From IMG/VR virus record IMGVR_UViG_3300049024_000077, positions 1-23,183 of that record: 23,183 bases of DNA. One strand, 5' to 3'. Under the pieces are notes generated by a model. That model was not told the origin of the DNA, ran no database searches, and saw only the letters and a program-made list of their open reading frames with translations. Position numbers and translations under genes: made by a program. The first letter of the stretch is position 1. Each line of letters begins with the position of its first letter. Below, in pieces: positions 565 to 22,600 of this stretch. This stretch comes from a virus.

Positions 565-1560
565 CTAACCTACGGGCCACGCGCACATAGGAGTACTGTC
601 TGCGATCGCCATGCCGCAGACCATCCCCGGTGCACAGTCGGCATCGTCGGAGCAGCGAGGGTAGCAAGCATCGCCCCAGCCGATTTCGTACGTAGTGCCG
701 ATGTCAGGAAGCGTTGGCGGGCACGAACCGAGCGGTAAACAAATGTTGCTCTCGCCGAAGTCCGCCGGCACGCAAGCCAAGTCCTCGCCGTAGCAAAGCG
801 TAGGCTGGCCGCTCTGCTGGTCGGTGGGGCACGGGCCCCAAAGCTGGCCGGCTTCAAAGAGAGGCTCCGTGCACAGTCCGTCGACGCACACGAGATCAGC
901 TCCGCAGGGACACGGCTCGCCGAGATCGCCTTTACATGCAGGAGCCTCGGCTTGCGCAAACTGATCGACGTGACAGGTAGGCCAGACCAACATCGAATCC
1001 TCGCCGCTCACGGCGACGCATGTCGCCGACTGTCCGTCGAAGCACCCGATACTGTCCCATGGGTGTGTGCTGACCTGCCCGGCGGCTCCCTCACATTGGT
1101 ACTCCGACCACGCGGACACCGTACCGGGTCCGATTTCGCAAGACGGCGCGACTTGGGTCCACCACGCTCCATCCCCCGCGTAGCATACCGACGTCCCGCG
1201 ATCGAAGATGGTCAGACACCGCCATTCGGGCAGCAAACCGCTTGGGTGTTCGCCTGCGCGGCAGGACTCGGCCGTCCATGCGTCAACGGGTGCTGCTTTG
1301 CCAGAGTCAATCAATTCGTCCAGCAAGCAACTTTCAACGACGATCGTCCACGCATCGTCCGCGGTGTTCAATCGTCCGTAGCAGATGTCAGCAATGGACT
1401 CTACGCAGCGGATTTCAGCCCAAACCGAAACGTCGTCACCGTCGCCGTCACCGTCTCCGACCTCGCCGGAAGTCTCCTCGCCGCCGTCTGTCAAGATTCC
1501 ACCCGGTGCGCAACCGAGCAGCATCAGCGACGCGACAATCGTGAACGCAACACACTTCAC
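565..1560 (-). CDS. Cys-rich outer-surface lipoprotein, Nannocystineae style (paralog of the next gene)
   Basis: This 331-residue protein has a classical lipoprotein signal: a short charged N-terminus, a hydrophobic core and the lipobox LLGC with acylated Cys17. A Gly/Asp-repeat linker (about residues 34-43) precedes the mature Cys-rich part. Residues about 48-230 hold several Cys/Trp modules, including PEWRC, GAWWTQV and LVWPTC. Residues 241-329 form a block that starts WGPCP and ends MCAWP. The same block, nearly unchanged, occurs in the upstream gene, so the two are paralogs. The start overlaps the upstream stop by four bases (ATGA), indicating translational coupling. The Gly-Asp linker plus EGF-like Cys repeats is a style I associate with Nannocystis-group myxobacterial surface lipoproteins. 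Function is unknown. If phage-borne, a role at the host surface such as blocking superinfection is possible but unproven. Confidence 0.85.
   Translation of the reverse strand: MKCVAFTIVASLMLLGCAPGGILTDGGEETSGEVGDGDGDGDDVSVWAEIRCVESIADICYGRLNTADDAWTIVVESCLLDELIDSGKAAPVDAWTAESCRAGEHPSGLLPEWRCLTIFDRGTSVCYAGDGAWWTQVAPSCEIGPGTVSAWSEYQCEGAAGQVSTHPWDSIGCFDGQSATCVAVSGEDSMLVWPTCHVDQFAQAEAPACKGDLGEPCPCGADLVCVDGLCTEPLFEAGQLWGPCPTDQQSGQPTLCYGEDLACVPADFGESNICLPLGSCPPTLPDIGTTYEIGWGDACYPRCSDDADCAPGMVCGMAIADSTPMCAWPVG
575..840. repeat. Direct repeat copy 1 (paralogous lipoprotein block)
   Basis: This segment encodes the WGPCP...MCAWP block of the shorter lipoprotein and matches 1748-2010 in the longer one at the DNA level, with long identical runs such as TGCGATCGCCATGCCGCAGA. 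Similarity at silent positions suggests a fairly recent duplication or gene conversion. Confidence 0.85.
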
Positions 1561-3041
1561 GGCTGCACCTCGCAGAATCCGTCGGCGCAGACCAGTCCGA
1601 GATCACATTGTCCGTTTGCACATGGACAACCGATCTGTCCGGCGGGACACGAAGTGCACCAGCCATCGCTGCACGTGAGATTCTCGGCACATTCGCCGCC
1701 AGGAAGACAGTTGCATCCGAGCGTGCCGGCGCATGATTCTTCACGCGGCCAGGCGCACATTGGCTGACCGTCTGCGATCGCCATGCCGCAGACCATGCCG
1801 TCTCCGCAGTCGTCGTCTGTCTCACATCGGAGATAGCAAGCATCACCCCACCCGACCTCGTGCATCGTCCCCCACGTCGGAGCGTCCGCGGGGCACGAAC
1901 CGAGCGGCAAACAGATGTTCGATTCACCGAAGTCAGCAGGCACGCAAGCCAGGTCTTCGCCATAGCAAAGCGTGGGTTGTCCGCTCTGCTTGTCGATCGG
2001 ACACGGACCCCACGCCTCGCCCGGCGCATACCCGGTCGGCCATGCGCAGAAGCCCTTGTTGCTTGCGTCGATCGGCGAGCACTCCAAATCGCCGCAGTCG
2101 TCAACGTTCTGCGTGCAGCCAGCCACACAGGCCGAATCGTGCAACACGCCTGAAAGTTCGAGCGGTAGGCCATGGTCGCAAGGCTCGGTACTCGTGGTGT
2201 TGGGCAGCGAGCAAACTTCGTTCCCGTTGTCTGCAACCGCGCAGATGAGTCCCGGCAAACAAGCGTCTCCGGGCATGCAGCGGCAACCGAGATCACCGTC
2301 AACGCACGCTTGACCGTCGCCGAGACACTCGGGCACGGGAGCCGGTGGCAGCATGTCGACCCAGCACGTCGGCCAGATCCTGAACGAGTCGTCGGCATAC
2401 TCTCCCGTGCACGACGTGATCGGATCGGTCAAGCAGCCTGTCGCGGACCAAGGGTTGGTCCCGACCGCCGAAGCCTCGCCGCAGATCGACGCTGGCCACG
2501 GTGCGACGGGCCCGGCCGGTGCATCGCACTGCGGACGGACCTGCGTCCACCACTGGCCGTCGCCCGAAAAGCACGCTGACGCCTGGGCCTGCTCCCTGAA
2601 CAAGCAGCGCCATTCCGGCATGAAGTTCGCGGGATGCTGACCGGGGGCGCACGTCTCGTCGGTCCATCCAGCGACGTCGCTTGCATCTCCCGTGGCTACC
2701 AGGTCATTGAGAACGCAGTCCGCCACTACGACCACCCATGCGTCTTCGGACCCGACGGGGAGGCCGTAGCAAACATCGAGTTCGTTGACTTTGGTGCAAC
2801 GGATTTCGGCGAATGCCGCCTCGCCATCGCCGTCGCCGTCGCCCGTCGGGTCACCGTCGCCGTCGCCTGATTCGGACGTGGCGCCAGTTTCTTCACCGCC
2901 ATCCATGGCGATATCTCCGGGCGCGCACGCGCAGAAAATGCCTACGGCAAGCAATGTGTGTAGTGACCGATAGGTCTGGCCGATTACAGATCGGTCGGGT
3001 AAACTAGAAGAGACCATCGAAGTAAAGATCTTGAATGTCAT
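1557..3041 (-). CDS. Larger Cys-rich lipoprotein, paralog of the downstream gene
   Basis: I chose the ATG at 3041 because AAAGGAAT lies just upstream; the frame continues to 3116 but that extension runs through a hairpin and does not look like protein. The 494-residue product has a long n-region, a hydrophobic stretch (about 29-38) and a lipobox ending at Cys39, followed by an acidic linker containing two Gly-Asp repeats. The body repeats the domain order of its neighbour: modules PEWRC, GQWWTQV and RIWPTC, then the WGPCP...MCAWP block. It adds about 60 C-terminal residues made of short Cys repeats (GCNCLPGG, IGCPCANG). No catalytic motif is visible. It is probably anchored in the outer membrane and disulfide-bonded. 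It is the first gene of a two-gene operon with a hairpin in its leader. Confidence 0.85.
   Translation of the reverse strand: MTFKIFTSMVSSSLPDRSVIGQTYRSLHTLLAVGIFCACAPGDIAMDGGEETGATSESGDGDGDPTGDGDGDGEAAFAEIRCTKVNELDVCYGLPVGSEDAWVVVVADCVLNDLVATGDASDVAGWTDETCAPGQHPANFMPEWRCLFREQAQASACFSGDGQWWTQVRPQCDAPAGPVAPWPASICGEASAVGTNPWSATGCLTDPITSCTGEYADDSFRIWPTCWVDMLPPAPVPECLGDGQACVDGDLGCRCMPGDACLPGLICAVADNGNEVCSLPNTTSTEPCDHGLPLELSGVLHDSACVAGCTQNVDDCGDLECSPIDASNKGFCAWPTGYAPGEAWGPCPIDKQSGQPTLCYGEDLACVPADFGESNICLPLGSCPADAPTWGTMHEVGWGDACYLRCETDDDCGDGMVCGMAIADGQPMCAWPREESCAGTLGCNCLPGGECAENLTCSDGWCTSCPAGQIGCPCANGQCDLGLVCADGFCEVQP
1748..2010. repeat. Direct repeat copy 2 (paralogous lipoprotein block)
   Basis: This is the partner of 575-840. 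It lies inside the longer lipoprotein gene, followed in that gene by extra Cys repeats absent from the short paralog. Recombination between the copies could delete or fuse the two genes. Confidence 0.85.
2822..2870. repeat. Short tandem GTCGCC-type repeat coding a Gly-Asp linker
   Basis: An imperfect hexameric GTCGCC/GTCACC repeat encodes, on the minus strand, two Gly-Asp runs after the lipobox. A shorter version sits at about 1436-1465 in the paralog. Such tracts are prone to slippage and so to linker length variation. Confidence 0.7.
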
Positions 3042-3046
3042 CGGGA

Positions 3047-3053
3047 TTCCTTT
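3047..3053 (-). promoter_or_regulatory. Ribosome binding site deciding the long lipoprotein start
   Basis: Read on the minus strand, AAAGGAA lies five bases upstream of the ATG at 3041. It is one of the clearer Shine-Dalgarno sequences in the window and is the reason for preferring 3041 over 3116. Confidence 0.7.
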
Positions 3054-3061
3054 GGTGGTTA

Positions 3062-3093
3062 GAGCACGGGTCCGCGGCAACGGACCCGTGCTC
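3062..3093. other. Perfect 13-bp hairpin in the lipoprotein operon leader
   Basis: GAGCACGGGTCCG (3062-3074) is exactly complementary to 3081-3093, with a six-base loop. It lies about ten bases upstream of the ribosome binding site of the long lipoprotein gene. No T tract follows it on the minus strand, and only AGTTTCG follows it on the plus strand, so it is not a typical terminator. A structured 5' leader, an mRNA stabiliser or a protein-binding site are all possible. Confidence 0.7.
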
Positions 3094-3280
3094 AGTTTCG
3101 CACAGCACAGTACCATGGGCAGGTACCTTTATGCCACAGGGGTGATCGCGCGCGTGCGTGAGAGCGCCACCTGCTGCCGTGCCTAGTTCATAGATTGGGC
3201 ACGCAAAGCACGCAAGGATTAACAGCGTGATTTTCGCGGGCGTGTCCGTGAGCTTACGCTACGTTTTTCCTTGCATCGCC
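3094..3280. other. Intergenic stretch, possible control region
   Basis: I see no gene here. The stretch contains a small direct repeat, GCACGCAA at 3199-3206 and again at 3208-3215, spaced one base apart like half-sites on one helix turn, and a weak inverted repeat around a GGTACC near 3115. No convincing -35/-10 pair is visible on either strand. If the small ORF at 3281-3538 is not real, the empty stretch extends to 3561 and would have to hold divergent promoters. Confidence 0.4.
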
Positions 3281-3538: not shown

Positions 3539-3561
3539 CTTGCGCGACTAGACTGATCCAC

Positions 3562-4161
3562 GTGGGCGACGCGAAGAAACGAACGATCTGGCACGGCGGC
3601 GATCCAGATCGCGCACTCAGCAAAGCGGAAGGTCTACTGGCCAAGCTGCGCGAGACGCCGCCCGAACACCGACCGAAGCAGATGACCATCCAGTATCTCG
3701 CTCACCAGTACCACGTGAGCGTGCAGACGATGAAAGGTCGCGTTGCTGATGCCGAGTCCAAGCGGCGTCTCAATGACTACGCCGACAACTGGCTGGAGAT
3801 CATCTACCAGATCGGCAACGTGCTCGGCGAGACGACGGCGGCGAAGACCTTCGCCATCGCGCATGACGTCAGCAACCGCAACGCCTTCAACGCGCAGAAG
3901 TTCATCTTGGAACGGACCGACCCGACGGTCTACGGAGCGACGGCCAACACGGTCGAACAAGCGCCCGCGCGGGCGTTCATTTCGGACGTGCCGCAAGAGG
4001 TGTTCGACGATCTGGACGAGGTCGCCGAACAGCAGTTGGCTGAGATCGAGCAGCTGTTCGCCAACGCGCAGTTGATGCTCACGCAGTGGGTGAGGCGGCA
4101 GCAAAAGAAGATCGCGGACCAACGCGTGCAGGAGGTTGACGCCGATGACACCGCCGACTAA
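3562..4161 (+). CDS. Probable terminase small subunit-like DNA-binding protein
   Basis: This 199-residue, mostly helical protein starts at GTG. Residues about 42-62 (IQYLAHQYHVSVQTMKGRV) fit a helix-turn-helix. A helical stretch then leads to AQKFILERTDPTVYG (111-125), closely resembling the 'LLERRDPERWG' signature common in small terminase subunits. The acidic, helical C-terminus would suit oligomerisation. If correct, it recognises the packaging site and recruits the large subunit. Against this, the large terminase gene is about 9 kb away on the opposite strand, whereas the two are usually adjacent. The next gene starts inside its 3' end. A phage regulator with a similar fold is the alternative. 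Confidence 0.5.
   Translation: MGDAKKRTIWHGGDPDRALSKAEGLLAKLRETPPEHRPKQMTIQYLAHQYHVSVQTMKGRVADAESKRRLNDYADNWLEIIYQIGNVLGETTAAKTFAIAHDVSNRNAFNAQKFILERTDPTVYGATANTVEQAPARAFISDVPQEVFDDLDEVAEQQLAEIEQLFANAQLMLTQWVRRQQKKIADQRVQEVDADDTAD
4130..4135 (+). promoter_or_regulatory. Consensus ribosome binding site AGGAGG
   Basis: This perfect Shine-Dalgarno sequence lies nine bases before the ATG at 4145 and directly abuts a TTG at 4136. It therefore places the start of the coiled-coil membrane protein at 4145, inside the end of the preceding gene. Confidence 0.8.
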
Positions 4162-4975
4162 TCGCCCTCTCCGATCAGTCACTGATCCCGACGTCGATGC
4201 TCTCGCTGACTCGCCGGTCGTGCTAGAAAACGAAGTGAGAGAGGAGATGCGAGCAGACGAACGCACGGAGCGAACGCGAGTCGCAGAATCCCTGCGAAGC
4301 ACCGATGACGGTGATGACGTCCCTGTATCTCGCAGCAGCCGAGCGCACCGCGATCGGGTGGTCTCGCGCGAAGACTCCGGCGTTCTTGCACGTGCTGTGC
4401 TCGATCAAGCTGACGCACTCGTACGCCGTCAATTCGGCGCGGGGCTGCCCGACGAAGCCAAGGCGTTCGCCGTCAAAATTGCACGCGAAGCGATCGATGA
4501 GTGGGCGCATCAACGCGAAGAGGCGTCAACGACGAGCACACGCCGAGTGCCCGCGTTTCAACCAGCGACGAGCACCGGGTTCGTGGTCTCGATCGTGACC
4601 GCAGTCGGGCTCGTCGTGGCCATCTTGATCGGTTCCGTGCTTGCGTTACGCATCACTGACCGGCTCGCGTCGATCGACGCCGCTGGACGCGAGCGCATGA
4701 CGGCGGTGGAAGCTCGTCTTGCCGAAGCCGAGAACAAACAGTTGGACTTGCGCAAGGACTACGACGCGAGTGTCAAGAGCAATGAGATCACCATCGCTGA
4801 CCACACCAAGCGCATCGGTCAGCTGGAAGCGCGTCAGAACATGCTCACGATCTACGTGATGGAGAGCCTGCGTCGCTTGTTGAAAGAGCGCGGCATCCCG
4901 GAGCCTGACGTGCCTCGCGGGCTGAGGATCGCCGAGATCGAAGCCGAAGATGCGCTACACCAAACACCGCAATGA
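4145..4975 (+). CDS. Single-TM coiled-coil membrane protein
   Basis: This 276-residue protein has three parts. Residues 1-140 are hydrophilic, very rich in Arg, Asp and Glu, and probably largely disordered, with one helical patch around 83-125. Residues about 146-170 form one strong transmembrane helix. Residues about 176-235 are a heptad-like coiled coil (ASIDAAGRERMTAVEARLAE onward), followed by an amphipathic helix and a short tail. There is no signal peptide. It overlaps the previous gene by 17 bases and the next by 4 (ATGA). Spanin-like lysis proteins and phage membrane-anchored scaffolds share the TM plus coiled-coil layout, but the TM is in the middle, not at the N-terminus, so I do not assign that role. 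Function unknown. Confidence 0.75.
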   Translation: MTPPTNRPLRSVTDPDVDALADSPVVLENEVREEMRADERTERTRVAESLRSTDDGDDVPVSRSSRAHRDRVVSREDSGVLARAVLDQADALVRRQFGAGLPDEAKAFAVKIAREAIDEWAHQREEASTTSTRRVPAFQPATSTGFVVSIVTAVGLVVAILIGSVLALRITDRLASIDAAGRERMTAVEARLAEAENKQLDLRKDYDASVKSNEITIADHTKRIGQLEARQNMLTIYVMESLRRLLKERGIPEPDVPRGLRIAEIEAEDALHQTPQ

Positions 4976-5292
4976 CTAACGCCAAACTGACCGCAGCACT
5001 CTCGGCCGCTCTCTTGTTCGGAGCTGGAACCGGTTATGCCGTTTCGGAGATGACCGCTAGCACGACCGGCGCCGGCAACCTCTGTGATCAATACCCGCGA
5101 CTGTGTGTGCAGTGCGGCATCACGGCGCCGTGCCCTACGCCCGCCGAAGGCGAGTGGCTCTGCTGCAATCTGTCTTCGGGGGTGTGCGTCGTCGCCAATG
5201 GAAGTTGCGAGGCGCCGAACGTGTTCGGCTACTGTGAGAACTACACCGAGAACGCGAACGGCTCGGTTACTTGTCACGATGAAGCTGAGTGA
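4972..5292 (+). CDS. Small exported Cys-rich protein (10 Cys)
   Basis: This 106-residue protein has an N-terminal signal or signal-anchor (TAALSAALLFGAGTGYAV). The rest contains ten cysteines, including an adjacent pair in EWLCCNLSSGVC, consistent with five disulfides outside the cytoplasm. Its ATG overlaps the preceding stop in ATGA, so it is probably translated together with the membrane protein upstream. There is no charged toxin-like or catalytic signature. It has the same style as the two exported proteins downstream (paired CC, short spacing) but does not align with them across its length. Possible roles include a virion or host-envelope protein; I cannot choose between them. Confidence 0.7.
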   Translation: MTNAKLTAALSAALLFGAGTGYAVSEMTASTTGAGNLCDQYPRLCVQCGITAPCPTPAEGEWLCCNLSSGVCVVANGSCEAPNVFGYCENYTENANGSVTCHDEAE

Positions 5293-5573
5293 CGCGCTGT
5301 CCGAGGCGCGCGGACCGGCAACGCTTGTGGGACTCGGACAGCGACCATTCGCTTCCGAGCGTGTTGAGCCGGCACCCCCGAGATCGGTTCCCGGCCCACC
5401 GGTCCGCGCAGCGAGAGCATGTCCCGGTGCGGTCACGCGACCAGTCCGGCGGGCTCGCCGAGAACAGCGAACACTCACCGGGGCACGATGCCGACGAGAC
5501 CGCCGAGACTGTTCGCTGTTTTCGGAGCGCGCGCCCGTGTGGATGGGCCCAGCGGCCGGCTCAAGCTCTAAGC
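5293..5573. ncRNA. Highly structured non-coding element with four long inverted repeats
   Basis: No protein-like frame covers this stretch. It contains four inverted repeats. IR1 is 5295-5305 with 5333-5343, 11 bp, perfect. IR2 is 5308-5318 with 5399-5409, 11 bp, perfect. IR3 is 5458-5473 with 5510-5525, 16 pairs including one G-U. IR4 is 5364-5373 with 5555-5564, 10 bp, perfect. IR3 nests in IR4, while IR2 crosses both IR1 and IR4, giving pseudoknot topology in RNA. A local UNCG-type tetraloop hairpin sits at 5350-5361. The element lies between two exported-protein genes and ends ten bases before the next ATG, which lacks a Shine-Dalgarno. It could be a trans-acting RNA, a structured leader, a packaging site or an origin. 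The strand is assumed from its neighbours. Confidence 0.55.
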
Positions 5574-5897
5574 ATGCAACACCGAACACTCCGCGCCGGG
5601 CTCCCGGCGCTCGCTCTCCTACTCGCCTCTGCATTCGTCGGCTACGCCAGCGCCGAGCCGCCGCAAGGGCCAACCGACAAGGACGATCGGCCGAATGGGC
5701 CGAAGGTCGTCATCAAAACCGAATACTTCTGTTGCGACTCCGTGGACCCGGGCGGCAACGACGGGGCCGGGACCGGCCAGGGCTGCGTGAAGACGACCGA
5801 GGACAACATCAACGGCTGCCGATTCTGGCTGGCGTGCCCCGGCGGGGCGACGGGCAGCGACGGCACCACCACGTGCACGAACCCGAAGCAGGACTGA
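5574..5897 (+). CDS. Small exported six-Cys protein (paralog of next gene)
   Basis: I place the start at the ATG at 5574; the upstream in-frame stretch is not protein-like and overlaps the structured element. The 107-residue product has a good signal peptide ending YASA/EPP, an acidic Pro-rich spacer, then six cysteines: a CC pair in TEYFCCD, then single Cys in QGC, NGC, LAC and TTC. Spacing is CC-16-C-10-C-5-C-12-C. The gene five bases downstream has almost the same pattern (CC-15-C-10-C-6-C-16-C) and the same YFCCD core, so the two are tandem paralogs. No Shine-Dalgarno is visible, and translation may depend on the folded leader. Function unknown; secreted and disulfide-bonded. Confidence 0.7.
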   Translation: MQHRTLRAGLPALALLLASAFVGYASAEPPQGPTDKDDRPNGPKVVIKTEYFCCDSVDPGGNDGAGTGQGCVKTTEDNINGCRFWLACPGGATGSDGTTTCTNPKQD

Positions 5898-5902
5898 CCG
5901 CC

Positions 5903-6184
5903 ATGACGATCCACGTACTCGCCATCACAGCCGCGCTCGCCATGGGCATCGGGTTCGGCGTCCAGCAGTCGAGCTCAGGCTGGGACAAGTCAAAGACGCA
6001 CTACTTTTGCTGTGACAAGACCGAGCAGGCCGACGAGACACACGACCGCGGACTCGGCTGTGATCGGATCACCAAATCCGAAGCAGCCAAGTGCGAGCGT
6101 GAAGTGCTCGAATGCCGCTCCAGCTGGACGTGGCAGAAAGCGAAGTTACCGGACGTCGTGACCTGTTACCGACCCAAAAAGTAG
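5903..6184 (+). CDS. Small exported six-Cys protein (paralog of previous gene)
   Basis: This 93-residue protein begins five bases after the previous stop. An N-terminal hydrophobic segment (VLAITAALAMGIGFGV) serves as signal or anchor. Six cysteines follow, with the YFCCD pair, LGC, AKC, LEC and a final VTC near the Lys-rich C-terminus. The Cys order matches the upstream paralog, although the residues between are poorly conserved, which suggests old duplication and diversification. The stop codon lies inside the stem of the terminator hairpin of the converging operon. Function unknown. Confidence 0.7.
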   Translation: MTIHVLAITAALAMGIGFGVQQSSSGWDKSKTHYFCCDKTEQADETHDRGLGCDRITKSEAAKCEREVLECRSSWTWQKAKLPDVVTCYRPKK

Positions 6185-6199
6185 CGCAGCGATCGCTAC
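6176..6199 (-). terminator. Rho-independent terminator of the long minus-strand operon
   Basis: Read on the minus strand, a six-base-pair stem GTAGCG/CGCTAC (6199-6194 with 6186-6181) with a seven-base loop is followed at once by TTTTT (6180-6176). It lies at the 3' end of the second XRE gene, as expected for the operon end, and overlaps the last codons of the converging plus-strand gene. Confidence 0.6.
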
Positions 6200-6423
6200 A
6201 CCTGCGGTTCGCTCTCGATCAGGTCGGCCGGGCTCACCCCGAGCGCTCGGGCGATGCGAAGCAAGTTGAGCAGACTGATGTTTCGCTCGCCTCGCTCCAC
6301 GCCGCCGATGTACGAGCGGTTCAGCTCAGCGCGCTGCGCCAACGCTTCCTGTGACAACCCTTGGCGCTCGCGTTCGGCTCGGACGCGAGCGCCAAAGCGG
6401 GCGAGCGCGTCAGCCCCCGTCAC
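6196..6423 (-). CDS. XRE-family helix-turn-helix regulator
   Basis: This 75-residue protein is a bare helix-turn-helix domain. It opens with FGARVRAERERQGLSQEALA, continues with RAELNRSYIGGVERGERN and ends in LLRIARALGVSPADLIE, the classic Cro/C1 layout (about residues 9-69) with no additional domain. It would bind DNA as a dimer, possibly at its own promoter. It overlaps the upstream XRE gene by 14 bases and is last in the operon, just before a terminator. Two adjacent XRE proteins suggest a repressor pair or switch, but no integrase is visible to support lysogeny. Confidence 0.88.
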   Translation of the reverse strand: MTGADALARFGARVRAERERQGLSQEALAQRAELNRSYIGGVERGERNISLLNLLRIARALGVSPADLIESEPQV

Positions 6424-6760
6424 CGCGCCGCCTCGCGTCGTGCGGGTGTTGCTGGACGAGATCGACGCGAGTCACCAGCGCGACGTCATCGTTGCTGCGC
6501 GAGGCGATCAGGTCGAACAGCTCGCGCCGCTCGTCGGTGCGCCCGATCTCGAAACTCTCGAACAGAGTGCTCGGCGAGATGCCGAGCCCCTGGCAGAGCT
6601 TGCGGATCGTGTCGATGCTGGCCGCGAAGCTGCCGTGCTCGATCCTGCGGATGGTGTCGGCCGAGAGACCGCTGCGCTGCGCGAGCGCTTCCTGAGTCAC
6701 GCCGCGAGCTCGCCGAAGCGACCGCACGTGCTTGCCGAATTCGTGTGCGTAGGCGCTCAC
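6410..6760 (-). CDS. XRE-family helix-turn-helix regulator with C-terminal extension
   Basis: I use the GTG at 6760, which overlaps the stop of the upstream gene as GTGA and has GGAG eight bases before it; an in-frame GTG at 6790 lies within the upstream gene. The 116-residue product has an XRE domain at about residues 9-65 (HVRSLRRARGVTQEALAQRS, then DTIRRIEHG and LGISPSTLFE) and a 45-residue charged tail containing DDVALVTRVD. It is a DNA-binding regulator coupled to the exported Cys-rich protein upstream and to a second XRE gene downstream. It could control the left-arm genes or act as an antitoxin-like partner; no toxin motif is visible nearby. Confidence 0.85.
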   Translation of the reverse strand: MSAYAHEFGKHVRSLRRARGVTQEALAQRSGLSADTIRRIEHGSFAASIDTIRKLCQGLGISPSTLFESFEIGRTDERRELFDLIASRSNDDVALVTRVDLVQQHPHDARRRGDGG

Positions 6761-7191
6761 GGGTGCGACTCCAGGCGCGACCAGCTGCACGCCGTGCTCA
6801 GACAGTTGCTACCGATCTCGGCGCCGTAGGTCTGTCGCATGAACAGCGCCGCGCTGGAACAGTCGTGGGGCTCGTCGCAGCGACACGTGCAGTGCTCGCC
6901 GGCGCAGAGCGTTCCGCGATCGCAGGGCAACACGAAGTCCTCGCCGCAGTCGATCGACCAATGATCCGTGCCGCCGGTGTCCGCCCCCGCGCGCGCGACC
7001 GGCTGACCTTCGCGGGGCATGCAGAGCGCCGTGCGGCGGAGCGGAGCGGGTGCCGGGACGCTCGAGCGCGTAGGCGTCTTGGCGGGAGCAGTAGCGGGTT
7101 CGGGCGGGGGCGAGTGACGGGCGACGTGGAGGCCGTCCACGAGCGCCACAGGGAGACTCAGCGCAAGGAAGAACGAGAGGCGTCGGTGCAT
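6757..7191 (-). CDS. Small exported Cys-rich protein coupled to XRE regulators
   Basis: The ATG at 7191 is chosen because it opens a signal peptide (RRLSFFLALSLPVALVDG); upstream in-frame sequence is low-quality Arg/Pro-rich translation. The 144-residue protein has a Pro/Ala-rich spacer, then a Cys-rich C-terminal half with ten cysteines (for example LPCDRGTLCAGEHCTCRC and HDCSSAALF). The stop overlaps the GTG of the next gene by four bases, so an exported protein and a transcription regulator are probably made together. It has no visible homology to the plus-strand six-Cys pair. The function is unknown. Confidence 0.65.
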   Translation of the reverse strand: MHRRLSFFLALSLPVALVDGLHVARHSPPPEPATAPAKTPTRSSVPAPAPLRRTALCMPREGQPVARAGADTGGTDHWSIDCGEDFVLPCDRGTLCAGEHCTCRCDEPHDCSSAALFMRQTYGAEIGSNCLSTACSWSRLESHP

Positions 7192-7737: not shown

Positions 7738-9759
7738 CTAGCCCGCCGCGCTCAGGTCCACGATCTCGCAGACGTCACCCGAGCACGCGAAGGTCTTCGC
7801 GCCCTGCGTGGTGTCGCCTTTTTCGTACGCAGCGAGACGAGACCAGTCGACCTCGGCGGGCATCGACTCGCGCAGTGCTAGATATTCCTCGCGCGAGATC
7901 GCTTCGTAGGGCGCTTGCACGTAGGTGTGATCGGACCGCGGCAAGAAACTCAGACCCGTGATCTCATCGAAGTGGTCCCACACCCACTGACCGAGCGCGA
8001 GGAATTCGTCATCAGAGTAGTAGATCGTGCAGCTCACCGAGTGATCGGCCCAGTGCGTCGCGTAGACGTGCCACAGCTTCGCTTGCGTCAATGCGTCGAC
8101 GTCGGCAGCAAAACGAGCGGTCGGCGGGCTGGCGATCGGAAACGAGAAGACCAGATTGCTCGGTGTGCGCGCATCGACCTCGCACGGGAAGCCCTGCTCT
8201 TGCATGAGCTGCGCGAGCGGGTCGTGATGGTCGGCGCGAACGCGACGGACATAGTAGGGTGCGAAGCGGGGGTGAATGCCGGAGCTGCTGTTGACGAGTT
8301 GCGAGACGGTGCCGGACGGCTTGACAGTCGTGATCGCCTTGCTGGGGGAGATGCCGAGCAGGGCCGCCCACTCGCGGTTCGTGTCGCGAGCGACTTGCCG
8401 AAGTTCGCCGAGCAGTTCGGGCAGCGTCTCGTTGTCGGGATCACCGAGCACCGGATGATCGGTGATGCCGGTGAGGCTCACGCCGAGCAGCCGTTCTTCT
8501 TCGCAGTTCGTGCGCCACTGCTTGCGCAGATACTTGAAGTCCAGCAAGTCGCTCTGCAACGTGCCGAGGATGGTCGCGCAGCGGACCTTCTCCGCGAGCG
8601 TCTCCAGTGTGTCGTCGGGGCGCACCACGACCTCGGTGAGATTACAGAACTGCATGGAGCGCAAACTGATCTCGGCGCAGGGGTTGCAGCCGAAGTCGAC
8701 GGGCTCGCGTCCGATCGACTCCGCCTTGCGCTGTGCGGCCACGCGGTTGAAGATCCCCCGCTCGCCGGACTTGCTCTCGTACAACGCCCACCACTCGCGC
8801 ATGAACACGCCGAACTCGGGCCGCTCGGTATACGCGGCGGAGTTGTTGGCGAGCGCCCGCTGCTCGTTGTCGATCCACCACTGACCCGACTTGGCAAAGC
8901 GCAACCGGTCATCGCTCGGGTTGCTCAGCGAAATTTCGGCGGACCGTCGCACGCCACCTGAGACAACGATGCGACCGATCATGCACATGAGATCGTGACA
9001 CTCGATCGACGACAGTTTGCGGCCTGCGGCTTCGCGGAAGATCTTGACCGTGAACCGGAACAGCTCGTCCAACGGTCGCGGCCCGCTCGAGCGCCCGCCG
9101 GACGTCTTCAAGCGAGCGCCGGCCGGACGGAGCTTGGACAGGTCCCACTGCGGAACTTGGCCCGCGTAGAGCAGCGAGATCAGTTCCTTGTACGCGCGGG
9201 CCCAGCCCGTGCGCGAGTCGGCGACAGTGATGGTCGTGTCGCTGTCGACCAACTCGTCGGCGACGGTCGGCAGTTTCTTCACGTACTGCCGTTCGACAGA
9301 GAAGCCAAGGCCGCAGCCGCTCATGAGGATGTAGATGGCTTCATCGAACGCGCGCGGAGAATCGACAGACAAAAATGCGCAGTTGTACCCCGCGACGTTG
9401 CAGCGACGCAGCGCAGGACCAGTGCTCCACAACGCGCGCATGCTCGGCATGACGTCCATGCGCAACACGGCTTCGCGGACGGCGTCTAAACTGTCTGCCA
9501 GCTTGGCGTAGTTCGTATCCGACAACTTGTCGTCAAAATACGTGAAGTAACGCGCAACGGTCTCATGCCACGTCTCGCGCCGCCGCTCATCGTCCAACCA
9601 GCGCGCGTATCGGCTCTTGTGGATGAATGTCGAGTATTCGCGCGTGCCCGTGTCGGGCAGTGCTGCGCCTGAAAATGGTCGAGCACGCTCCGCAGGTGCG
9701 GCGGGCGTGCTCGATGCAGCAGAATCAGAATCGTGGGTGCTCTTGGTGGCGTCCAGCAT
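7738..9759 (-). CDS. Adenosylcobalamin-dependent (class II) ribonucleotide reductase, monomeric RTPR type
   Basis: This enzyme reduces ribonucleotides to deoxyribonucleotides for phage DNA synthesis, using a thiyl radical generated from coenzyme B12. At 673 residues it is close to, but shorter than, the monomeric Lactobacillus-type enzyme. Visible key residues are Cys127 in YNCAFL, Cys361 and Glu363 in NPCAEI, and Cys372 in FCNL. The Cys361-Cys372 spacing of 11 equals that of Cys408 and Cys419 in the L. leichmannii enzyme. The C-terminal redox pair Cys659/Cys664 (CSGDVC) keeps the CX4C spacing. A GGAG lies ten bases before the ATG. It is oxygen-independent and needs host B12. No separate beta subunit is seen, consistent with class II. 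Confidence 0.96.
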   Translation of the reverse strand: MLDATKSTHDSDSAASSTPAAPAERARPFSGAALPDTGTREYSTFIHKSRYARWLDDERRRETWHETVARYFTYFDDKLSDTNYAKLADSLDAVREAVLRMDVMPSMRALWSTGPALRRCNVAGYNCAFLSVDSPRAFDEAIYILMSGCGLGFSVERQYVKKLPTVADELVDSDTTITVADSRTGWARAYKELISLLYAGQVPQWDLSKLRPAGARLKTSGGRSSGPRPLDELFRFTVKIFREAAGRKLSSIECHDLMCMIGRIVVSGGVRRSAEISLSNPSDDRLRFAKSGQWWIDNEQRALANNSAAYTERPEFGVFMREWWALYESKSGERGIFNRVAAQRKAESIGREPVDFGCNPCAEISLRSMQFCNLTEVVVRPDDTLETLAEKVRCATILGTLQSDLLDFKYLRKQWRTNCEEERLLGVSLTGITDHPVLGDPDNETLPELLGELRQVARDTNREWAALLGISPSKAITTVKPSGTVSQLVNSSSGIHPRFAPYYVRRVRADHHDPLAQLMQEQGFPCEVDARTPSNLVFSFPIASPPTARFAADVDALTQAKLWHVYATHWADHSVSCTIYYSDDEFLALGQWVWDHFDEITGLSFLPRSDHTYVQAPYEAISREEYLALRESMPAEVDWSRLAAYEKGDTTQGAKTFACSGDVCEIVDLSAAG

Positions 9760-12704: not shown

Positions 12705-12756
12705 GGGTGTATCTCAGTCTAGCGTCGGAGGACTCGCATCGCACCGCGATCGGGGC

Positions 12757-14382: not shown

Positions 14383-14418
14383 GTCAACGCAGTTGTTCGA
14401 GACACCAGTGATAGGACA

Positions 14419-15148
14419 TCACCGCTTGTTCAACGACGACCGTATCCCCAAGACTTCCGACGCGCTCTCGTCGTCGACGTGCGTCCAATCCGCGGGGAGA
14501 CCCAAGAGACGCTCGATGAAGACCGGGTTCAACACCATCGAAGCCTTGCCCGGCCCGACTTGTTGGTTGTGGTAAAGCAGCATTGCATCGGTGAGTGTCG
14601 GGTACTGATGATAACGCATTTCGCCGTAACCAAGCTGACGCGACTCCTTCCAATCGGCCTGTTTCGGTGACGGCCAGCAGGAAGACTCGAGCACGGTTGA
14701 TTTGCCCACCGACCTCGGTCGCGCGGCTAATCGTCCACGCAGCATCACACCCGATTTCGGCAAGTCCTTGCAAGACGGTATCAAGTCCCCTTGTCCGAAG
14801 ATCGGCCACGTTTTCGATGAAGATGGCATGAGGTTGAGCTTCTTTGATTATGCGAAGATACTGAAACCACAAGCCTGAATGCTTGCCTTCAATGCCCTGT
14901 TTAGAGCCGAGCGGAGAGATGTCTCGGCAAGGGAACCCTCCGCACAGGACATCAAATTGTCCAGGTGTTGCGTTGTACGAACAGACGTCATCATGTCGCT
15001 GCACGTTGGGCCAGTGCTTGGCAAGCACTGCGCGACGGTACGGCACCGCTTCGACTTGTGTGACTGTACGCCCTCCGGTGACGATCTCGACTGCACGGTC
15101 GAGCGCGCCTATGCCAGAGAACAGCGAGAGGATGCGGGGTTGAGTCAT
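14419..15148 (-). pseudogene. C5-cytosine DNA methyltransferase, interrupted by a frameshift
   Basis: The 5' part (from 15148) is a clear Dcm-type enzyme: motif I LSLFSGIGALDRA, catalytic Cys74 in GGFPCRDIS, motif VI IENVAD and motif VIII-like INRARVFLLA. After residue 157 the frame drifts into unrelated sequence ending at 14384. A +1 shift at 14677 (CTG, skip C, TGG) restores a typical phage C5-methyltransferase tail: WPSPKQADW, then LNPVFIERLLGLPADW, stop at 14419. The gene is thus mutated, subject to +1 recoding, or carries an assembly error; no classical slippery site is evident. It is visibly AT-richer than both neighbours, suggesting recent transfer. Intact, it would protect phage DNA from restriction. 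GGAG precedes the ATG. Confidence 0.85.
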
Positions 15149-22057: not shown

Positions 22058-22600
22058 TCACGGAGTGCACACGATCGTGAACGGCGGTTTGCAATAGGCG
22101 TTGACCGAGCACGCGGCTTCCAGCGCCGCAGTGATGCGCTTGCGAGGGTCCCGCCAAATCCCGGCGGTTGTGTGCAGCGAGCCCATCGCCAGTTCGCGGC
22201 CGCAGCCACGCGCTGCGAAGTCGGCAAACTCCTCCACGGCATAGTAGCTGTCCATGGTGAATAGCCGGTCTTCGTAGCCGATCAAGAGCACCGGTCCGAG
22301 CTCTTGTCCGGTTGTCACCTTCTCATCAAAGCCCGAATCCTTGCGAGCTTGTCGGAGAGCGTCAGCGAAGTCGATGCACAGGTAACGCAGCACGTCGGTG
22401 CTGTCGTTCATGTTCGGCAGCGTGACGCGGTGTTGGATGATTTGTTGCTCGCGCAGCGCCCCGGTGCAGGCGAACACGAAGTCGCCTTGCTGCCAGACCT
22501 TCGGTTGAGTGGACGCGGCGACAACATCGCCATTGGTCGTGGCCGAGTCAGCGCCTACCCACGTGCGCCCGTTGTGCACGACGCCGACGAGCACGGTCAC
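22058..22600 (-). CDS. HslV/proteasome-like Ntn hydrolase
   Basis: This 180-residue protein matches the proteasome beta/HslV fold. It begins Met-Thr-Val-Leu-Val; after Met removal the N-terminal Thr would be the nucleophile. In that numbering Asp17 (VGADSATT) and Lys33 (QPKVWQ) fall exactly where HslV has Asp17 and Lys33. The FVFACTGA segment is the usual 'hydrophobic-x-GxxG'-type strand, and the C-terminal RITAALEAACSVNAYC helix also fits. HslV is 175 residues. No HslU ATPase is seen here. It may act as a phage protease or another N-terminal-nucleophile hydrolase; a prohead protease role is a guess. It starts ATGA-coupled to the preceding gene. Confidence 0.8.
   Translation of the reverse strand: MTVLVGVVHNGRTWVGADSATTNGDVVAASTQPKVWQQGDFVFACTGALREQQIIQHRVTLPNMNDSTDVLRYLCIDFADALRQARKDSGFDEKVTTGQELGPVLLIGYEDRLFTMDSYYAVEEFADFAARGCGRELAMGSLHTTAGIWRDPRKRITAALEAACSVNAYCKPPFTIVCTP

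Follow-up and report, generated by a model that had tools for sequence, protein, structure and literature searches.

The analysed DNA is an IMG/VR virus record of 23,183 bases, hereafter the window, whose minus strand carries genes for TerL, portal, PolA, ThyX, ribonucleotide reductase, a nucleotide kinase, and a C5 methylase. By its codon statistics, the open reading frame of the C5 cytosine methylase (14384-15148, -) looks non-coding (GC3 0.52, negative score), and it is overlapped in another frame by an open reading frame (14419-14829, -) that resembles the C-terminal part of the methylase, so that a frameshift, either natural or due to an assembly error, is possible. The same strand also encodes an HslV-family peptidase-like protein (22058-22600, PHROG 1040, E 3.6e-18). 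Two related lipoprotein genes, 565-1560 and 1557-3116 (-), are duplicated in the phage (best segments 42-73% identical); they encode Asp-Gly-rich linkers typical of Nannocystaceae and are likely host-derived. The DNA pattern of one linker matched only Enhygromyxa, one Nannocystaceae MAG, and one Myxococcales MAG. Several Enhygromyxa loci also encode homologs of the 5574-5897 protein (best E 1.3e-10, 42% identity), and the flanking genes therefore suggest that the phage host probably belongs to the Nannocystaceae.

A short rightward operon occupies positions 3562-6184 (+). Its genes overlap or lie at most 5 bases apart at every junction except one, the 281-base spacer 5293-5573, which is therefore exceptional within the operon. 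The spacer lies among three consecutive genes for small exported Cys-rich proteins, 4972-5292, 5574-5897, and 5903-6184 (+), the first upstream and the other two downstream (Table 1). The protein encoded at 5574 and probably that encoded at 5903 belong to a multicopy Enhygromyxa six-Cys family with the pattern FCC...C...C...C...C, for which no Pfam or PHROG match was found. Two Cro/CI-type HTH regulators are encoded at 6196-6790, 0.6 kb from the spacer, and the first of these genes (6196-6423) contains a 16-bp inverted repeat (94%) with a 3-base loop at 6361-6395. The sequence CTAGACTGA occurs at 3547-3556 (+) and 12714-12723 (-), just upstream of the starts of gene 3562 and the portal gene 12704; it is possibly a phage promoter -10 motif, with a simple pattern count that is not above chance.

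Table 1. Genes, inverted repeats, and predicted RNA helices at and around the spacer 5293-5573
Feature	Position	Strand	Remarks
Upstream gene, small exported Cys-rich protein, 106 aa	4972-5292	+	Stop codon 5290-5292
Downstream gene, exported six-Cys protein, 107 aa	5574-5897	+	Homologous to multicopy Enhygromyxa family
Next gene, exported six-Cys protein, 93 aa	5903-6184	+	Paralogous to 5574-5897 (E 7e-5)
S1, perfect 11-bp pair	5295-5305/5333-5343		
S2, perfect 11-bp pair	5308-5318/5399-5409		
S3, perfect 10-bp pair	5364-5373/5555-5564		
S4, 16 pairs	5458-5473/5510-5525		15 Watson-Crick, one G-U
Hairpin P1	5287-5350	+	Helix 5287-5291/5346-5350 (0.94) and S1 (0.99); overlaps stop codon 5290-5292
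S2 5' arm	5308-5318	+	Inside P1 loop; partner 5399-5409; pseudoknot or alternative fold
Closing stem, 5' side	5351-5373	+	5351-5354, 5357-5360, S3 arm 5364-5373; probabilities 0.90, 0.96, 0.98
Irregular internal arm of multibranch domain	5375-5453	+	Most helices >0.9, tip ~0.54
S2 3' arm	5399-5409	+	
S4 hairpin	5458-5525	+	5458-5473/5510-5525; probability 0.99
Small hairpin	5533-5548	+	5533-5538/5543-5548; probability 0.98
Closing stem, 3' side	5555-5573	+	S3 arm 5555-5564, 5565-5568, 5570-5573; covers -19 to -1 of AUG 5574

No codon periodicity was detected in any of the six frames of the spacer, and none of them scored as coding when compared to phage codon usage; two plus-strand frames are nevertheless open, as a result of the GC-rich DNA. 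The four inverted repeats described in the initial annotation were all recovered at their positions (Table 1). In 400 dinucleotide-preserving shuffles of the 281 bases, perfect pairs of at least 11 bp had a mean of 0.025, near the 0.01-0.02 that had been estimated as the chance level, and none of the shuffles contained two perfect pairs of at least 11 bp or three of at least 10 bp. Among 328 sliding windows of the contig, the spacer ranked first for perfect pairs of at least 10 bp. The shuffles and the ranking together place the repeat content beyond chance. The arms of the repeats are 27 to 181 bases apart, four of them have the sequence CGCTGT/ACAGCG in common in alternating orientation, and the GC content of the spacer is 70%, compared to 64% for the contig.

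The plus-strand RNA of 5285-5580 folded at -149.4 kcal/mol (z -3.17), and the comparison with shuffled sequence that had been proposed as a check gave no equally stable fold in either of two sets of 200 and 300 shuffles. The predicted fold extends over the whole spacer, with its 5' end at the upstream stop codon and its 3' end at the base preceding AUG 5574. Its ensemble diversity was 27.8, whereas the shuffles averaged 71 (4 of 300 were lower), and its three longest helices sum to 37 bp, a value reached by none of 300 shuffles (23 bp in shuffles). S1, S3, and S4 nest in one fold with pairing probabilities of ~0.98-0.99 and were retained when the sequence was folded in 500- and 926-base contexts. 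The multibranch domain is closed by the helices 5351-5354/5570-5573, 5357-5360/5565-5568, and S3. Since the last paired base directly precedes AUG 5574, positions -19 to -1 are nearly all paired, and the unpaired probability at 5555-5573 is at most 0.2 at every base except 5569. The lack of codon periodicity, the three long helices at probability >0.9, and the unusually well-defined fold bear out the earlier description of a structured non-coding element.

By folding z, the spacer ranked ninth of 248 window/strand folds of the contig; several of the eight more extreme folds are overlapping windows, and one overlaps the spacer region. Energy alone thus does not single out the spacer, as more extreme values occur elsewhere. 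The most extreme of the contig (z -6.2) belongs to the plus strand of 2993-3273, near the divergent lipoprotein/operon junction, which contains a perfect 13-bp hairpin at 3062-3093. This ranking, together with the possibility that S2 by itself is accidental, would suit the explanation that a GC-rich spacer happens to contain several repeats. We consider this very improbable, since its repeat content was matched by none of the 400 shuffles and its helix lengths or energy by none of 300. The spacer is a genuine, statistically strong orphan feature.

The initial annotation had also proposed a pseudoknot topology. S1, S3, and S4 nest; the proposed pseudoknot depends only on S2, which is missing from the minimum-energy fold. 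S2 crosses both S1 and S3 and has a probability of zero in the nested fold. Its duplex energy is -24.4 kcal/mol, and the fold with the S2 arms freed has an energy of -128.3 kcal/mol, so that the 24.4 kcal/mol gained from the duplex stands against a cost of ~21 kcal/mol for freeing the arms. In these energy estimates, the total for the S2 pseudoknot would roughly equal the nested minimum once the pseudoknot penalty is paid. An alternative nested fold containing S2 and S4 reached -142.6 kcal/mol. An accidental pair of the length of S2 is expected in ~2.5-6% of trials: a perfect pair of this length occurred in ~2.5% of whole-region shuffles, and in at most 5.5% with the other stems fixed, an upper bound because extensions of the fixed arms were counted. 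S2 is thus possibly a pseudoknot, a switch, or an accident. A more ambitious proposal is an undescribed phage RNA class, in which S1, S2, S3, and S4 would form a compact pseudoknotted domain in Nannocystaceae phages, acting either as a nested/S2 switch at the 5574 start or as a free trans RNA. In the switch version, the 5574 start would be closed by the nested fold, with the S2 fold as the alternate state. We regard a new class of this kind as quite unlikely.

The minus-strand RNA folded nearly as well as the plus strand (z -2.37, 4 of 200 shuffles), and the strand evidence from G-U pairs was mixed, as S4 favours the plus strand and S2 reaches 15 pairs only on the minus strand. Near-equal folding of the two strands is what would be seen if the spacer were a DNA-level site with protein-binding dyads, such as an operator, a packaging or cos-type site, or a replication origin, and RNA folding were incidental. 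Three of the four repeat pairs are perfect and hence strand-symmetric, the CGCTGT/ACAGCG motif alternates in orientation, and the two Cro/CI-type regulators are encoded nearby. However, the arms are farther apart than would be expected of an operator, no further copy of the motif was found in the contig, and a sequence with 70% GC that lacks an AT-rich stretch makes a poor origin. A packaging site, one of the alternatives in the initial annotation, had been linked to a nearby terS-like gene; this identification was not supported, as 3562-4161 gave no profile or fold match and its AlphaFold model reached a pLDDT of 62 (single sequence). We consider a DNA-level site somewhat unlikely.

Relatives of the spacer were sought among viruses and in potential hosts. 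None was found in 50,697 phage records. The S4 DNA pattern was absent from viral contigs, the six-Cys family profile had no match in them, and the S1 DNA pattern gave two unrelated matches (L158 and L159) that have no gene in common with the window. TerL, portal, PolA, and the 3562 protein likewise had no relatives in IMG/VR. A search of IMG/VR with the ribonucleotide reductase returned 70 loci at 35-61% identity, of which almost none have another gene in common with the phage; in the few exceptions, the additional genes are limited to PolA, dNMK, or the methylase. This class II enzyme (7738-9759, -) has ~50-60% identity to its counterparts in many IMG/VR phages and, since the other phage genes are without close relatives, was likely acquired separately. 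Against ~310-318 Polyangia genomes, the spacer DNA gave only short chance-level matches. The best piece, 39 bases at 93% identity in 1 of 318 genomes (L123 1501-1539, E 2.6e-7), matched the 3' arm of S4; its partner arm is absent, the region lies upstream of a gene, and its fold is not unusual (z +2.4). A 15-mer from this match was present in 15 genomes, compared to ~5 for the reversed control, and was judged not to be a shared motif. The single-sequence covariance model of S4 gave one match in the Polyangia genomes, within a peptidase gene and attributable to chance, and that of S1 gave one weak match. The missing relatives are an absence of data and do not constitute evidence against the structure.

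These searches bear on whether the spacer is a REP/MITE-like palindromic insert, either mobile or relict, between genes of a compact operon. An exceptional, palindrome-rich spacer in a tight operon, with a GC content above that of the contig, would be compatible with such an insert, but no second copy was found in the contig, where the search returned nothing except the palindrome of the spacer, in the phage records, or in the Polyangia genomes, short chance-level pieces aside, and we consider this explanation distinctly improbable. An integron attC site, which starts with RYYYAAC and ends with GTTRRRY, was rejected by eye, since GTTGAGC at 5363-5369 is located at the end opposite to that required and has GCTCAAG as its partner; no integron integrase was found among the scanned window proteins. 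Retron msr-msd RNA is known from Nannocystis and other myxobacteria and resembles the spacer in its size of ~280 nt and in having an outer inverted repeat with a long inner hairpin. In contrast to a retron, the window has no reverse transcriptase among its scanned proteins. Within Rfam 15, the spacer also resembled no RNA class, in agreement with the initial annotation: no family, retron RNA included, reached its gathering threshold, and the best sub-threshold match was to an unrelated microRNA model (E 0.72). The large ornate phage-associated RNAs GOLLD and ROOL (PMC12286853) are likewise non-coding, multistem, phage-borne, and possibly pseudoknotted, whereas the spacer is only ~280 nt long, is without an Rfam match, and had no relatives in the searches above.

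A phage small RNA that acts independently in trans, transcribed on its own or processed from the operon mRNA, would account for the compact, well-defined fold of 281 bases, and the structure at its two ends, by the stop and start codons, would be compatible with processing. A weak scan revealed neither a sigma-70-like promoter inside the spacer nor a Rho-independent terminator (GC hairpin with a downstream T-run) in 5293-5573, and the spacer has no Rfam match or relatives, which makes a trans-acting RNA unlikely.

The lack of a promoter fits co-transcription of the spacer with the operon. The spacer is non-coding, separates two genes that the operon carries in the same orientation, and has a predicted structure more stable than that of shuffled sequence. 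Among the alternatives raised initially, we favour a leader controlling the six-Cys genes, in the form of a cis-acting intercistronic mRNA domain that would control the translation of the downstream six-Cys exported genes or the decay of the surrounding mRNA. We hold this model tentatively, at slightly below an even chance; a packaging site, an origin, an attC site, a retron, or a mobile palindrome is less supported. According to this model, the polycistronic mRNA of the operon 3562-6184 would be transcribed through the spacer, which would fold into P1 on the stop codon of 4972-5292 and then into the multibranch domain, whose closing helices, S3 and two short ones, would extend to the base just before AUG 5574. 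The domain would hide positions -19 to -1 of the 5574 start, block exonucleases, or both; in the case of an exonuclease block, the two halves of the mRNA would decay differently. As a result, the two downstream six-Cys proteins would be expressed separately from the upstream genes.

A precedent for intercistronic protective structures and differential operon decay is provided by malE-malF (PMC5927463). Similarly to the malE-malF REP region, the spacer would place a stable structure without a terminator U-tract between two genes of a polycistronic mRNA, whereas it is much longer, multibranched, and free of a repeated REP unit. The pairing of -19 to -1 also recalls 5' leaders that hide a start, such as thermometers, riboswitches, and autoregulated leaders. 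In contrast to these leaders, the spacer is not at the 5' end of an mRNA and has no Rfam match and no known ligand or regulator. Several observations count against the cis-acting domain. The spacer has no homologs and thus offers no covariation; most genes of the phage lack a clear Shine-Dalgarno sequence, so that hiding one is no simple argument; and the fold does not specially join the stop and start codons, which were equally close in 69 of 300 shuffles. Regions upstream of the host homologs of 5574 are not consistently structured (z -2.6 to +1.8), and the host family showed no conserved leader of this kind. The near-equal folding of the minus strand and the mixed G-U evidence weigh in the same direction.

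As an orphan, the spacer is today a well-defined candidate rather than a class. The Nannocystaceae are predatory bacteria, and hardly any of their phages are represented in the collections searched. Should the element exist in the cell as predicted, one such phage would possess a structured regulatory RNA and would control host-derived secreted Cys-rich proteins separately from the rest of the operon.
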